Assembly: GCA_029559475.1 (NCBI GenBank)
Contig: JAKQBN010000050.1
Span: 1 to 63,493 of the forward strand
Length of the DNA: 63,493 nucleotides
From: a bacterium
GTDB taxonomy: Bacteria > UBA4055
Direction: 5' to 3'
Each line of letters starts with the position of its first letter. The stretch's first letter is position 1. The notes under the pieces are model-generated. The model was not told the origin of the DNA and ran no database searches. It saw only the letters and a list, made by a program, of their open reading frames with translations. The translations under genes were made by a program, and so were the position numbers. Of the stretch, positions 39,223 through 45,373 are shown piece after piece.

Positions 39223-41211
39223 CTACTGTCCGTGGACCTGACGGTTCAGATATTCAGTAGAAAAATATAGAATATTGCCGAGAATGTGTTTTCTATTGTC
39301 CAGCCCGGGCGAATCTTTGTTGTATTCTATAAGATTATTCAGCGGACCATAAAAACGCGGTTCAACCCCTGAAGTTCTGACAAGAAGAGTATCGTTTATA
39401 ATAAGACCGAGCTTATCACCGTCAGTCATATAAGCGTATCCCCCATCCGGATTTTTAATCAGGTCTCTTCCCCACGACGCGTTTTCATATTCACCACCGA
39501 GCAGACCCATCAAAGTCGGCAGCACATCGTATTGAGAACACAGGGTGTGAGAGACTTTTCCTTTAAGATCAGAAAATAACCCGCTCTCTGAATATATAAG
39601 GAAAGGTATATGGAATTTCTCTCTGTCCATCGGAACTTCTTTGAAGTGCCTGTTCCGGCCGTGATCTGAAATCAGAACAAAGACGGTATTTTTATAGAAC
39701 GGCTTTTTTGAAAAGGAACTTATGAAGTATTCAAGAGATGTATCCGCGTACATTAATGAATTCAGATATTTATTACCGGGTACTGATTCATCCAGCTTTT
39801 TTGGAAAATCCGAAGGAAGATCAAAAGGTTCGTGGCTGGAAAGAGTAAAGATGAACTGGAAAAACGGTTCTTTCATTTCTGAAGCCTCACTTAGAGTTCT
39901 CTCAAATGTATCTTTATCGTAGGCTCCCCATTTTGAAGCGGATTCATCGGGATCTATATCTTTCATTCCAATGCATTTGCTTATACCGTTTATCCTTAAA
40001 AAACCTTTCATGTTATCGAATTCCGGATCGCCGCCGTATATGAACATATTGTCGTAGCCCCGGTTCTTTAAAATCACCGGTATGCTGAAAAACGGACGGT
40101 TAGACTCGATCTTTTTTAGAGCTGAGATCCCGTACTGGGACGGAACGGAACAGATGACAGATTCGATACCTTTATTCGATCTCGTTCCTGTTGAGTAGCA
40201 GTTGTCAAAAAAAACGCCCTTTTTTACTATACTGTTAAAGAAAGGAATCAATTCGATCTCCCCTATTCGTCTGTTCACGCTTTCGAATGTCCAGCCTTCA
40301 AGAAGGATCAATACCACGTTCAGATCCTTTCTCTCAGATCCGGTGTTAGTTATCCGTCGAAGAACGTTCTCTGATTGTATTTTCTGATGAATTTCATCTT
40401 TGAGAACGAGATCCGATATTAAATTTTCATCGATAATAATATCCTTATATAATCCGGCTTTTTTAGCAGTTTTGCTTTTCTTATACAGATCATAAGATTT
40501 TCCGATCGTAAAAATACCGTTCAGAGATGCCTGATTCAAGGTTTCGTTGTCGGAAAAAACAGATGATCCCCAGTTCAGATTTGAAGTGGAGATCCCGCCT
40601 CTTGCTCCGATAATTAAAATCCCTGCAGTAATTAAAAGCGATACTCCCTGAATTATAAAACCGGCTGCCGATCTTTCAGGTTTCAGCAAAAAAATAATTT
40701 GCTTAAGATAAAAATAATAAATGACGAGACAGACAGAAAGTCCTGAAAGATAAGTAATAACCGGATAATCTGAGTAAACTGTTCCGTAAACTTCACCGCT
40801 ATTCAGATAGATAAGGTCTCTGAAAGTCAGATGTCCGCTGAAAGTCCTGAAATATTCAATATCGACTATCTGCGTCATTAATATAATGAATAATAATAAT
40901 ATATGGAATATTATTAATGTTTTATATATAAAACTGCCTATTTCCTTAAATAGTGATATTATAAACATTATAATAATAAGCGCTGCGATCATAAGGAGCG
41001 AATATGAAATTATGGAAGTGTCGAACCTTTGACCGACAAGAAAAGTTTTAATGATCGCTCCTGAATCAGCTGTACTAAAAACGTCGGGCGAAACTCTTAA
41101 CAAGAATATCAGTCTGAGTACGGAAAGACAGAACGCCACATAGATATAAACAAGAAAAAAGTAAGCAACAGCTCCGGTCTTTCTGATATGTTCAGCTTTA
41201 ATAAAAAACAT
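39223..41211 (-). CDS. Membrane-anchored sulfatase-fold phosphoglycerol transferase-like protein (LtaS/MdoB family)
   Basis: 662 residues. The first 230 hold about five to six membrane helices, and the rest is an extracytoplasmic alkaline-phosphatase-superfamily domain. Seen motifs: LILLEGWTFESVN near 303 (metal-binding Glu), STGTRSNKGIES near 340 with the candidate catalytic Thr, LSSHEPFDLP, and VLISDHGRNRH near 515 with the Asp-His metal pair. In LtaS and OpgB relatives this fold moves phosphoglycerol or phosphoethanolamine from phospholipid to a glycan. In a diderm host the acceptor is more likely a periplasmic glucan, lipid A or a glycolipid than lipoteichoic acid. It is divergent from the operon starting at 41312. 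No convincing promoter could be chosen. Confidence 0.7.
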   Translation of the reverse strand: MFFIKAEHIRKTGAVAYFFLVYIYVAFCLSVLRLIFLLRVSPDVFSTADSGAIIKTFLVGQRFDTSIISYSLLMIAALIIIMFIISLFKEIGSFIYKTLIIFHILLLFIILMTQIVDIEYFRTFSGHLTFRDLIYLNSGEVYGTVYSDYPVITYLSGLSVCLVIYYFYLKQIIFLLKPERSAAGFIIQGVSLLITAGILIIGARGGISTSNLNWGSSVFSDNETLNQASLNGIFTIGKSYDLYKKSKTAKKAGLYKDIIIDENLISDLVLKDEIHQKIQSENVLRRITNTGSERKDLNVVLILLEGWTFESVNRRIGEIELIPFFNSIVKKGVFFDNCYSTGTRSNKGIESVICSVPSQYGISALKKIESNRPFFSIPVILKNRGYDNMFIYGGDPEFDNMKGFLRINGISKCIGMKDIDPDESASKWGAYDKDTFERTLSEASEMKEPFFQFIFTLSSHEPFDLPSDFPKKLDESVPGNKYLNSLMYADTSLEYFISSFSKKPFYKNTVFVLISDHGRNRHFKEVPMDREKFHIPFLIYSESGLFSDLKGKVSHTLCSQYDVLPTLMGLLGGEYENASWGRDLIKNPDGGYAYMTDGDKLGLIINDTLLVRTSGVEPRFYGPLNNLIEYNKDSPGLDNRKHILGNILYFSTEYLNRQVHGQ

Positions 41212-41311: not shown

Positions 41312-42193
41312 ATGAAACAGATAATATTTCTACTCTTAATGAGCTTTACAGTATATGTCTGTCCGAAAAACGCAGTAATAGTCTTTAGCGGAAGCAATAA
41401 CGGCTATTTTAGAGACTGCGGATGACCGGTCGAAAGGCTCGGCGGTCTTGCCGAGAGAAAAACGGTTTTTGACAGCCTGAAAACTGCTGACGAAAATACA
41501 ATTTTCTTAGATACGGGTGATTTTTTAAGTATGAGGTCATCTTTAAATGATGATGAGATCATTTCCGCCGTTTATCCCGCGCTTGGTTATTCCGCATGTG
41601 CGATCGGCGATCAGGAGCTTAATAACGGCATTCCGTTTTTTAAAAATAATCTGAACGGTAAACTGAATTTCATTTCATCCAACCTGCAGTTCTCAGACAA
41701 AGAGATTAAAATTGACAGATACAGGATCATTCAGCTCACGAACGGAATAAAGGTCGGCGTTACGGCAGTTAACTATAATACTGACTTCAAATATCTGATG
41801 AGATCGAATGTCATAAAAGAATCGGATATCACTGTTGATAAGGCTTTCGACAATCTTAAAAAGAGCCTTTCCGAAATGAAAGGTAAAGCCGACCTCATTG
41901 TAATCCTTGCGAATCTGAATAATGAGGGGATAGTAAAACTTCTTGATAATGTTGACGGATACGACCTTGTTATCGGCGGTAATAACGGAGAAGAATTCAA
42001 GTACGCACGCAGAATCGAGAATAAAATCCACGTTCAGAACGGCAGGGACGGCGAAAAGATCGGAAAAGTCGAATATAGTTTTTTTGCGGACAAAAAACCG
42101 AAATTTGAAGATTACGAACTTATCAAAATACTGGCAAAGAAGCATAAAAGAAACGAAGCCGTAGAAAAGATAATCAAAGGACTGGATAAATAG
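41312..42193 (+). CDS. UshA-like metallophosphoesterase-family selenoprotein (in-frame TGA read as Sec38)
   Basis: 293 residues from ATG 41312, with AGGA 7 nt upstream. A signal peptide (MKQIIFLLLMSFTVYVC) leads to the motif NNGYFRDCG-U-PVERLGGLAER. TGA at 41423-41425 is in frame at codon 38, and the frame stays open on both sides from ATG to the TAG at 42191. Directly after it lies a SECIS-like hairpin (separate entry). As I recall the family, homologues have Cys-x-Cys before a conserved GGLARR, so Sec replaces the second Cys, giving Cys36-Gly-Sec38. The 5'-nucleotidase fold is shown by DTGDF (Asp70), IGDQEL (the NHE site as DQE) and FISSNL. The protein is predicted periplasmic. Whether it still hydrolyses phosphate esters or acts as a thiol/selenol redox protein is open. 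It is first in the mltG-pcrA operon, 4 nt before mltG. Confidence 0.85.
41426..41455 (+). promoter_or_regulatory. Bacterial SECIS-like hairpin after the in-frame TGA
   Basis: CTCGGC (41438-41443), loop GGTCTT (41444-41449), GCCGAG (41450-41455): six perfect pairs. Exactly 18 nt separate the TGA from the loop GG. From memory, the E. coli fdhF SECIS has the same 18-nt spacing and a GGUCU loop. The hairpin is within the coding frame, as expected for bacterial SelB recruitment. Confidence 0.85.
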
Positions 42194-42197
42194 CCTG

Positions 42198-43220
42198 ATG
42201 AATAAAATGCGATCCCTATATTTTATTTTAGCTGTAACGGGCTTTGTGATAATGACGGGATTTTTCTGGACTGACAGATTTGTCATAAACAAGGTCGTTT
42301 TTTCCGGACAGGACAGCGTATCATTCAAGATACCGAAAAAAGCAGCTTTTAATGAGATCGCTTCGATACTCCGAGCTAAGAACATTGATGTTTCCGATCT
42401 CGAATTCAAATTCACGGCTAAATGGCTTGAGAAAGACAGAAAGATCAAATACGGAAAATATACATTTCATCCTGAAAAAAAACCTGTCAGGCTGAAAGAT
42501 CTGATAACACAGATTTCTGAAGGCAACAACATAACCGTGAACGTGACTATCCCGGAAGGTTCAAGGCTCGTCGAGATCGCAGGCACACTAAAAAAATATC
42601 TTGATGTCGATTCGGCAGCTTTCATGGACAGGGTTTACGATCAGGACGTTCTCGATAAATACAAGATCCCTGCTCAGTCTCTTGAAGGCTACCTATATCC
42701 CGAAACCTACAATTTCAACATGGAAGAGAACATCGATCTCGTGATAGAAAGGATGTATAATACGGGCAGGCAGAAGCTTTACAGGCTGAAGAATAAGATC
42801 GACAACAATGCGCTTGGAGAACACGGAATTATTACTCTTGCTTCGATAATTCAGGGCGAGGTAATGAATTACGATGAGATCCGGCTTATCAGCGCTGTTT
42901 ATCACAACAGGCTGAAAAGAGGGATGCTGCTCCAGGCGGATCCGACCGTTCAGTACATGTTCGACAGGCCGAAAAGGCTGTTAAAAACCGATACATCCAT
43001 CGATAATCCGTACAATACATACAAATATAAGGGACTTCCGCCGGGACCGATAAACAATCCTTCAGTTAAAGCCGTAGAAGCCGCATTAGATCCTGCGGAT
43101 GCTCCGTATTTATTTATGGTTGCGAAAGGCGACGGAACGCACAATTTTAATGTGGATCTAAATGATCACATCAACGACAAGAACAGGTTCGACCGCAATG
43201 TCAGAAAAGAGAAGAAATGA
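42198..43220 (+). CDS. mltG: Endolytic murein transglycosylase MltG (YceG)
   Basis: 340 residues with one N-terminal membrane helix (YFILAVTGFVIMTGFFW). A LysM-like region (SFKIPKKAAFNEIASILRAK) precedes the catalytic YceG domain: LEGYLYPETYNF, then LASIIQGEVMNYDEIRLISA and the ending VYHNRLKRGMLLQADPTVQYMF. The catalytic Glu lies in IIQGE. The enzyme cuts nascent peptidoglycan strands in the periplasm. It begins 4 nt after the selenoprotein stop and ends overlapping pcrA by ATGA. Its own stop is TGA, which shows that TGA normally terminates in this organism. Confidence 0.9.
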   Translation: MNKMRSLYFILAVTGFVIMTGFFWTDRFVINKVVFSGQDSVSFKIPKKAAFNEIASILRAKNIDVSDLEFKFTAKWLEKDRKIKYGKYTFHPEKKPVRLKDLITQISEGNNITVNVTIPEGSRLVEIAGTLKKYLDVDSAAFMDRVYDQDVLDKYKIPAQSLEGYLYPETYNFNMEENIDLVIERMYNTGRQKLYRLKNKIDNNALGEHGIITLASIIQGEVMNYDEIRLISAVYHNRLKRGMLLQADPTVQYMFDRPKRLLKTDTSIDNPYNTYKYKGLPPGPINNPSVKAVEAALDPADAPYLFMVAKGDGTHNFNVDLNDHINDKNRFDRNVRKEKK

Positions 43221-45373
43221 AATTCGAGCTTAACGAACGCCAGAGAAAAGCGGCCGAGCATATTGACGGTCCGTTGCTTATTATAGCCGGAGCGGGAAGC
43301 GGAAAAACGAGAGCGCTGGTAGAAAGGATTGCGAACATCATTTCATCCAAAAAGGCGTATCCTTCCGAGATAATGGCGGTCACTTTCACCAATAAAGCTG
43401 CAGGAGAACTTGTCGAAAGGATAGTTTCGAGGGTCGGCGAGATCGGAAAAATGATATTCGCCGGAACTTTTCATTCGCTTTGCGCAAAAATATTAAGAAG
43501 GCATGCCGACATTCTCGGTTACGGCTCGAACTTTGTGATCTATGATTCGGATGACAGCGAAAAGGTCGTAAGGGAGATGATCAGACGGAATAATTTTAAC
43601 ACTGCGTCATTCCCGGTAAAGAAAGTCGCATCGATAATATCGCTTTTAAAAAACAGGCTGATCTATCCTGAAGATTACAACCCGGGAACGGACGAGAATT
43701 TTCACGACAGGATAAAAGACATCTATGCGGACTATCAGAAAGAGCTGATTAGATGCAACGCGATGGATTTCGACGATCTTCTGTGCCTGACAGTAAAACT
43801 TTTTAAGCAGGACAAGGAAGTTCTTTTCGATTATCAGAACAGGATCAAGTATATCTGCGTGGACGAATATCAGGATACCAACTATGTTCAGGACCTTCTT
43901 ATCACTCAACTTTCCGCTCTGTACGAGAATGTCTGCGTGGTCGGAGACGAGGATCAGTCCATATACAGCTGGCGCGGCGCGGACATAAACAACATACTGA
44001 CATTTAAGGACAGGCACAAGAACTGCGGGCTTATCCAGTTCGAGCAGAATTACAGAAGTTCCGGGCATATATTAAAGGCTGCGAACTCGGTGATATTGAA
44101 AAATACGCAGAGACTGGGCAAGAACCTCTTTACCGATTTCGGTCATGGCGAAAAAGTCGTTCTGATCTCATCCCCTACAGATATCGAGGAAGGCATAAAA
44201 ACCGTTTCACAGATCAATTCGATGATTGACTGCGGGTCAGAATTAAAGGAAATATGCGTTCTGTACAGAACCAATTCGCAGAGCAGGATCATCGAGGAGA
44301 ACTTAAGGAAGAACGGTCTCCCCTACACCGTAGTAGGCGGGCTGAAGTTCTACGAAAGAAAAGAGATTAAAGACCTGATCTCATATTTAAGGCTTGCGGT
44401 AAATCCCGACGACAATGTTTCGTTTGAAAGAGTAGTCAATTTTCCTCCGAGAGGGATCGGGAAAACAACGATGGAGAAAATAAAGCGGCAGGCTCTGTCA
44501 GACGGGACTTCATATTACAAAGCGCTGAAAAACGCTGATGAAGGGCAGTTTACCGGCCCTACCGGAAAAAAAATTAACGCTTTTATTTGTATGATCGAAA
44601 AAGCGGCCGCGGAAATGAAAAAAGATAATGCGAAGAAGATCACTGAAATGATGCTTAACCAATCGGGTTTGAAAGAGCATTATCTGAAGGCTGAGGACGA
44701 AAGCGGGGCGAATTCGAGGATCGACAACCTGTATGAATTTCTAAGCGGCGTGTCAGAATTCGTGCGCACTGAAGACAAAAATTCGCTTCTTGATTTTCTT
44801 TCAACGGTTTCGCTTCTATCCGATATTGACACTTACAATAATCGAGAGGACAAGATAGTTCTGATGACAGTTCATTCAGCAAAAGGGCTCGAATATGACA
44901 ATGTGCTGATAATCGGAATGAACGAAGGCCTCTTCCCTTTCATCAGGGTAGATGAACCTTTAAAACTCGAAGAGGAACGCAGGCTTTTTTATGTAGCTGT
45001 CACAAGGGCGAGAAAAAAGCTTGTCATCTCAACTTTCCGGGACAGAAGCAGATATTTCGGCGACAATACGGGTTATGTTCCGTCAAGATTTCTCGATGAT
45101 CTGCCCGATAATTCAACGGATAAAACAGGCTACGAAAAAACCGATAAACCCCAGATCCGTTTTGATAAATTCACAAAGTATGAGAAAAATGCGTTGAATC
45201 AGGAGATGGAACAGCCATTGTCAAAAAAAGACATCGTGCTTTCGAAACAGTTTGGCGAGGGGATCGTGCTGGATGTGGAAGGCACTGCGGGCAGAAAAGT
45301 GGTAACTGTCGATTTCGATGATTTCGGGATAAAAAAACTGCTTGTCCGATACGCGGATCTGAAAAAATTATAA
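43217..45373 (+). CDS. pcrA: UvrD/PcrA-type SF1A DNA helicase
   Basis: 718 residues. Motif I is AGAGSGKT (residues 24-31), motif II CVDEYQDTNYVQ, motif III GDEDQSIYSWRGA, motif IV region QNYRSS, motif V MTVHSAKGLEYDNV and motif VI EERRLFYVAVTRA. The C-terminal 60 residues form the small Tudor-like domain seen in PcrA (GEGIVLDVEGTAGRKVVTVDF). It unwinds DNA 3'-5' in nucleotide excision repair and replication-conflict removal. The start overlaps the mltG stop by 4 nt. pcrA and uvrD are not reliably separable from sequence; the C-terminal domain favours the former. Confidence 0.9.
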   Translation: MKFELNERQRKAAEHIDGPLLIIAGAGSGKTRALVERIANIISSKKAYPSEIMAVTFTNKAAGELVERIVSRVGEIGKMIFAGTFHSLCAKILRRHADILGYGSNFVIYDSDDSEKVVREMIRRNNFNTASFPVKKVASIISLLKNRLIYPEDYNPGTDENFHDRIKDIYADYQKELIRCNAMDFDDLLCLTVKLFKQDKEVLFDYQNRIKYICVDEYQDTNYVQDLLITQLSALYENVCVVGDEDQSIYSWRGADINNILTFKDRHKNCGLIQFEQNYRSSGHILKAANSVILKNTQRLGKNLFTDFGHGEKVVLISSPTDIEEGIKTVSQINSMIDCGSELKEICVLYRTNSQSRIIEENLRKNGLPYTVVGGLKFYERKEIKDLISYLRLAVNPDDNVSFERVVNFPPRGIGKTTMEKIKRQALSDGTSYYKALKNADEGQFTGPTGKKINAFICMIEKAAAEMKKDNAKKITEMMLNQSGLKEHYLKAEDESGANSRIDNLYEFLSGVSEFVRTEDKNSLLDFLSTVSLLSDIDTYNNREDKIVLMTVHSAKGLEYDNVLIIGMNEGLFPFIRVDEPLKLEEERRLFYVAVTRARKKLVISTFRDRSRYFGDNTGYVPSRFLDDLPDNSTDKTGYEKTDKPQIRFDKFTKYEKNALNQEMEQPLSKKDIVLSKQFGEGIVLDVEGTAGRKVVTVDFDDFGIKKLLVRYADLKKL

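Follow-up and report, generated by a model that had tools for sequence, protein, structure and literature searches.

A predicted heme-less selenoprotein of the UshA-like family encoded directly before mltG in Candidatus Delongbacteria

Results

Genes and features at the locus

The window is the whole stretch of DNA analysed here (63,493 nucleotides). It comes from a 2.28 Mb draft genome whose close relatives are Candidatus Delongbacteria MAGs. The features discussed below are as follows.

39223–41211, reverse strand: divergently oriented gene for a sulfatase-fold membrane protein resembling LTA synthase; a neighbour, outside the selenoprotein unit
41312–42193, forward strand: selenoprotein gene, UshA-like Cx(U/C) domain protein of 293 residues with Sec38 (from translation and orthologues)
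41312–41362, forward strand: putative N-terminal export signal, residues 1–17, a Lys and then a hydrophobic stretch (read from the translation)
41417–41425, forward strand: Cys36-Gly37-Sec38 motif with the Sec codon TGA at 41423–41425 (alignment A2, orthologues, Cys homologues)
41423–41455, forward strand: SECIS-like element, consisting of UGA, 12 nt, stem CUCGGC, loop GGUCUU and stem GCCGAG
42198–43220, forward strand: mltG (endolytic transglycosylase), the following gene, separated from the TAG by 4 nt and itself ending in TGA (TIGR00247 above cut-off)
43217–45373, forward strand: pcrA/uvrD-type DNA helicase gene, overlapping mltG

The selenoprotein frame runs from ATG 41312 to TAG 42191–42193 (882 nt), and its sole internal stop is the TGA at 41423–41425, which corresponds to residue 38. 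The initial annotation had described a frame open except for this one TGA, a signal peptide upstream of it and a Cys-Gly-Sec motif. The frame and the motif are as described, and residues 1–17 resemble an export signal, although this assignment is putative. The residues around Sec38 are R-D-C-G-U-P-V-E-R-L-G-G-L-A-E-R, so that CxU is followed by GGLxxR (CGUPVERLGGLAER). Inspection of the translation revealed no CxxCH heme motif in the 293-residue protein.

In all ten genomes with an orthologue the selenoprotein gene lies directly before mltG. In the window, pcrA/uvrD is followed by a tRNase-Z-like gene and then a pyrE-like gene. The gene spacing and the constant first position before mltG agree with the earlier suggestion that the gene leads a cell-wall/DNA-repair operon, which is a predicted one. 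On the other side, the LTA-synthase-like gene (39223–41211) separates the selenoprotein gene from a glmS-like gene; it is missing from this place in several related genomes.

The in-frame UGA

We aligned the window protein with its orthologues, which all come from one family of Candidatus Delongbacteria. TGA occupies the Sec38 codon in 10/10, the window's own genome included, and the other nine proteins are 55–72% identical to the window protein. Upstream of the TGA, too, the sequence is coding and under selection at the protein level, since residues are conserved there while codons vary. For example, Gly27 and Gly31 are invariant among the orthologues, yet all four Gly codons are used. When 33 Cys homologues were aligned, their second Cys fell opposite the TGA (Cys-x-Cys versus Cys-Gly-Sec); these homologues belong to a sample picked by score and hence non-random. 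In the 12-member alignment A2, the only invariant columns are Cys36, Cys/Sec38, G44, R49, D67, G69 and G99.

A hairpin follows the UGA directly. Its stem of 5–6 bp and its GGUCU loop are present in 10/10 orthologues. In E. coli fdhF, the GGUCU loop starts 18 nt after the UGA, the same spacing as in the window gene; the fdhF stretch was matched in 5,368 of 5,426 E. coli genomes. Codons at invariant residues are also unusually constant behind the Sec codon. Among the ten orthologues, codon identity at such residues is 0.78 from Sec+1 to Sec+12 versus 0.44 elsewhere (p = 5e-5, degeneracy-matched resampling), and Leu43 CTC, Gly44 GGC and Gly45 GGT are each used in 10/10. Across the wider family, the SECIS-like stem averages 4.2 bp in 36 Sec forms versus 1.4 bp in 33 Cys forms, and the GGUCU loop occurs in 17/36 versus 3/33. 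The Mann-Whitney p for the stem contrast is 4e-8, which is indicative only because the compared sequences are related. The folding energy of the single hairpin sequence was not significant (z −0.7 to −1.7), and an Rfam search of the SECIS region with E up to 10 gave chance matches alone, none above threshold. What carries the SECIS assignment is therefore the conservation of codons, the identity of the loop and the contrast between Sec and Cys forms.

The Sec machinery of the genome is complete. tRNA-Sec scores 54.8 bits, over the Rfam cut-off, and its UCA anticodon can be read from the sequence. SelA and SelB are present. SelD is encoded with an in-frame TGA of its own (context HVRAAGUAGK). 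All four genes that the initial annotation had named as a check (selA, selB, selC and selD) were thus found, and SelD itself contains Sec. SelB was detected in 11 of 13 genomes of the family; the remaining two are drafts in 230 and 320 contigs. We found no paper that links Delongbacteria with selenocysteine. The source genome shows two genes for SelA, both located where a contig begins (L015 and L016; G000:C40 and C67), which may reflect a duplication, a strain mixture or an assembly effect. A second selenoprotein gene (L157, G000:C53:22667-23065 plus flanks) is peroxiredoxin-like with an FVUATE motif and shares its contig with the Sec-containing selD (L017).

We considered a change of genetic code in which TGA means Trp, and rejected it. 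Ordinary TGA stops occur next door, in mltG and the tRNase-Z-like gene, so the code is unaltered. The other reading takes the TGA as a genuine stop, in a pseudogene or before a shorter gene, or as a sequencing error. A TGA-free ORF of 220 residues, which a standard gene finder would pick up, does start at ATG 41531 inside the selenoprotein frame. However, ten genomes share the TGA, the protein is conserved upstream of it, homologues carry Cys in its place, the codons behind it are conserved in a SECIS-like manner and the Sec machinery is complete. We reject a pseudogene or a sequencing error, and give this whole reading hardly any credence. By the comparative evidence, UGA 41423 is almost certainly translated as Sec. 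The earlier proposal of a selenoprotein whose homologues have Cys at the Sec position is borne out by the ten orthologues, the aligned Cys homologues, the SECIS-like hairpin and the Sec machinery.

Family placement

UshA-like (COG0737) selenoproteins with CxU were reported in a 2008 ocean survey (PMC2398784), and such CxU proteins were listed again in 2022 and 2026 (PMC9312934, PMC13188914). NCBIfam has two models for them, NF041198 and NF049981. The initial annotation had doubted its own claim to novelty, and rightly. The window protein matches NF041198, the "UshA-like (seleno)protein" equivalog model with PCGU, at E 1.4e-32, but with 113 bits versus a cut-off of 275. The orthologue P0003 also stays below this cut-off, at 110 bits. 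The match to NF049981 (UshA-like family 2) is 39.8 bits versus a cut-off of 140.

Compared with NF041198, the window protein has the same domain, CGU at the same column and GGLxxR after it. It differs in having DCGU instead of PCGU and 293 residues against 519 model positions. It also lacks the tetraheme C-terminus, where a tetraheme relative matches model positions 396–518. NF049981 describes a short form of the same fold family with Sec in the same loop; its motif is CxxU (PMC13188914), whereas the window protein has CxU. With support 100/100, the tree places the ten orthologues in a clade of their own, separate from the NF041198-like Sec forms with four hemes. The Sec label changes at least 5 times on well-supported branches, although the bootstrap is not fully settled. 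The family is therefore already known, having been listed since 2008, and with scores far below both cut-offs the window gene is a divergent, heme-less, 293-residue variant of it.

Other UshA-like genes were noted along the way. The source genome has a Cys paralogue of the domain (L052, G000:C32:45500-48200) with a CNCPK motif and a lipoprotein-like start, located between secretin-like and gcvPB-like genes; in G006, a tetraheme Sec form occupies this locus. Another genome (L114, G145:C62) has two adjacent Sec genes of this type; the motif is CPTUGHR (CxxU) in one of them and PSGUGCN in the other, with Ser at the usual place of the first Cys.

The metal site of the nucleotidase fold

Profile-level homology joins the window protein to the N-terminal domain, about 270 residues, of UshA and related 5'-nucleotidases (1ush, 3ivd), in line with the UshA-like ancestry first proposed. 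In UshA, the DxH and GNHE motifs and the late His residues are metal ligands and catalytic residues. We mapped these positions with E. coli UshA as reference, using a sequence that is identical to 1ush over residues 26–318. The window protein, with residue numbers counted from the alignment, has S28/N30 at the DxH pair, D70 at D84, D100/Q101 at N116/H117, N201 at H217 and N224 at H252. Its CGU lies in the loop that follows strand 1. Because the protein ends at residue 293, it lacks the C-terminal nucleotidase domain. Of the downstream motifs that the initial annotation had listed, GGLAER is present, but working 5'-nucleotidase motifs are not supported.

The same loss is seen across 70 CxU/CxC domains. 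The Asn and His of GNHE (N116, H117) are kept in 0/70, and the His of DxH in 0/37 Sec and 3/33 Cys forms. Other positions survive in part: D84 in 46/70, H217 in 42/70 and H252 in 32/70. AlphaFold runs on three orthologues gave a mean pLDDT of 35 and the model was discarded, which leaves the site geometry without structural support. From the alignments, we assign the window protein as the N-terminal domain of a UshA-type metallophosphoesterase whose di-metal catalytic site is lost.

An active UshA-type phosphoesterase or 5'-nucleotidase with an incidental Sec would fit the family profile, which is homologous overall to 5'-nucleotidases. We regard it as very improbable, given that DxH, GNHE and both late His are lost, the C-terminal nucleotidase domain is absent and the window protein (P0001) has no Pfam Metallophos match. 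Alternatively, Cys36 and Sec38 could be ligands of an altered metal site for binding, storage or a new hydrolase activity, with no redox couple. Cys and Sec can bind soft metals, the CxU loop comes just after the place of DxH, D70 and D100 are kept in the window protein, and some relatives retain two of the late His. On the other hand, acidic residues fill just two of the ligand places in the window protein, Asn stands in for both late His, and the domains fused to family members are electron-transfer domains. This reading is unlikely for the window protein; some family members may conceivably hold a metal, as a number of the ligands survive in part of the family.

A further reading is a sulfur-transfer enzyme with a persulfide or selenosulfide on CxU, distantly analogous to SoxB in its thiosulfohydrolase step. 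Of the characterised relatives, SoxB (TIGR04486) is one of the better-scoring, with E values of 3.6e-8 for P0001, 9e-17 for P0003 and 2.6e-20 for a heme form. The homology is distant. However, the scores are only 32–72 bits versus a SoxB cut-off of 550, and some relatives score about as well against nucleotidase models. In the gene neighbourhoods that we read, we recognised no Sox genes. SoxB is also a larger, di-manganese enzyme. We consider sulfur transfer improbable.

Redox partners among relatives

Four CxxCH motifs follow the UshA-like domain in 21/36 Sec forms and 12/33 Cys forms, and both tetraheme relatives tested with Pfam matched Cytochrome_C554. Thioredoxin-type fusions are found in Cys forms only. 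L138 and L139 (by Pfam) and L140 and L144 (by eye) begin with a fused AhpC-TSA/Redoxin domain that contains CxPC, and in L072 an AhpC-TSA/TlpA-like gene lies directly upstream of the UshA-like gene. By eye only, thioredoxin-like and DsbD/CcdA-like membrane segments were seen at the end of L080, L148 and L150, and a DsbA-like part at the end of L141 and L151; where tested, Pfam did not confirm the DsbD/CcdA-like and DsbA-like parts. The L072 gene itself (G013:C13), a Cys tetraheme form, is located about 5 kb from selB.

We searched 13 Delongbacteria genomes for cytochrome-c assembly and DsbD. The cytochrome-c assembly family PF01578 was found in 2/13 (G004 and G006), neither of which has a short Sec form; G006 is the genome with the tetraheme form. 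PF01578 was not found in the window's own draft genome, and as several of the genomes are incomplete MAGs, its absence means "not found". DsbD_TM was detected in 12/13, the own genome included, and was not found in G012 (short Sec form, 79% complete). Within this small set of 13 genomes, the distribution of PF01578 and the tetraheme form suggests that loss of the hemes and loss of cytochrome-c assembly go together.

Discussion

As far as sequence comparison can tell, the protein is most likely a selenol/thiol oxidoreductase of the periplasm whose metallophosphoesterase fold has lost its original function. In the proposed mechanism, SelB and tRNA-Sec would read UGA 41423 as Sec, with the hairpin that follows directly as the signal. 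Cys36-Gly37-Sec38 appears, by the alignment, to be the strictly kept functional feature, in the loop just after the former DxH motif. Sec38 would act as a nucleophile on an oxidised periplasmic substrate, Cys36 would resolve Sec38 by forming a selenenylsulfide with it, and re-reduction of the pair would come from outside. Relatives have a redox partner attached, which is either a c554-like cytochrome with four hemes or a thioredoxin domain of the TlpA/AhpC type. In the window's organism and its heme-less kin, a DsbD/thioredoxin-type thiol relay may be the electron source, because PF01578 was not found while DsbD is present. We put this relay at about an even chance.

The initial annotation had proposed a redox or metal role. 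The redox part is favoured by the fusions and the invariant Cx(U/C), whereas the phosphoesterase or metal part is not supported, with DxH, GNHE and the late His lost. Against a redox role, the short form has no fused redox partner, and the neighbours mltG and pcrA do not suggest redox chemistry. Even so, the role is probably redox rather than hydrolytic. Overall, a periplasmic selenoprotein that combines a dead nucleotidase fold with a redox role is the best explanation, and we hold it with somewhat more confidence than doubt.

For the family, we tentatively propose, at somewhat less than even confidence, that UshA-like domains with Cx(U/C) make up a class of their own among periplasmic thiol/selenol oxidoreductases, one without a thioredoxin fold. 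The domain would be a metallophosphoesterase turned metal-free redox protein, spread over many bacterial families, which plugs into multiheme cytochromes or thioredoxin/DsbD relays and has switched repeatedly between Sec and Cys.

Because the Delongbacteria variant scores below the NCBI model cut-offs, automatic annotation probably cuts its gene at the TGA and hides it. UshA-like selenoproteins have so far been tabulated without a function (PMC2398784, PMC9312934, PMC13188914), and there is now a functional proposal that can be tested: the metal site would be gone, the Cys-Sec pair kept by selection, and the attached domains suggest the electron source. As a small, heme-free form, the Delongbacteria variant may be well suited to biochemistry.
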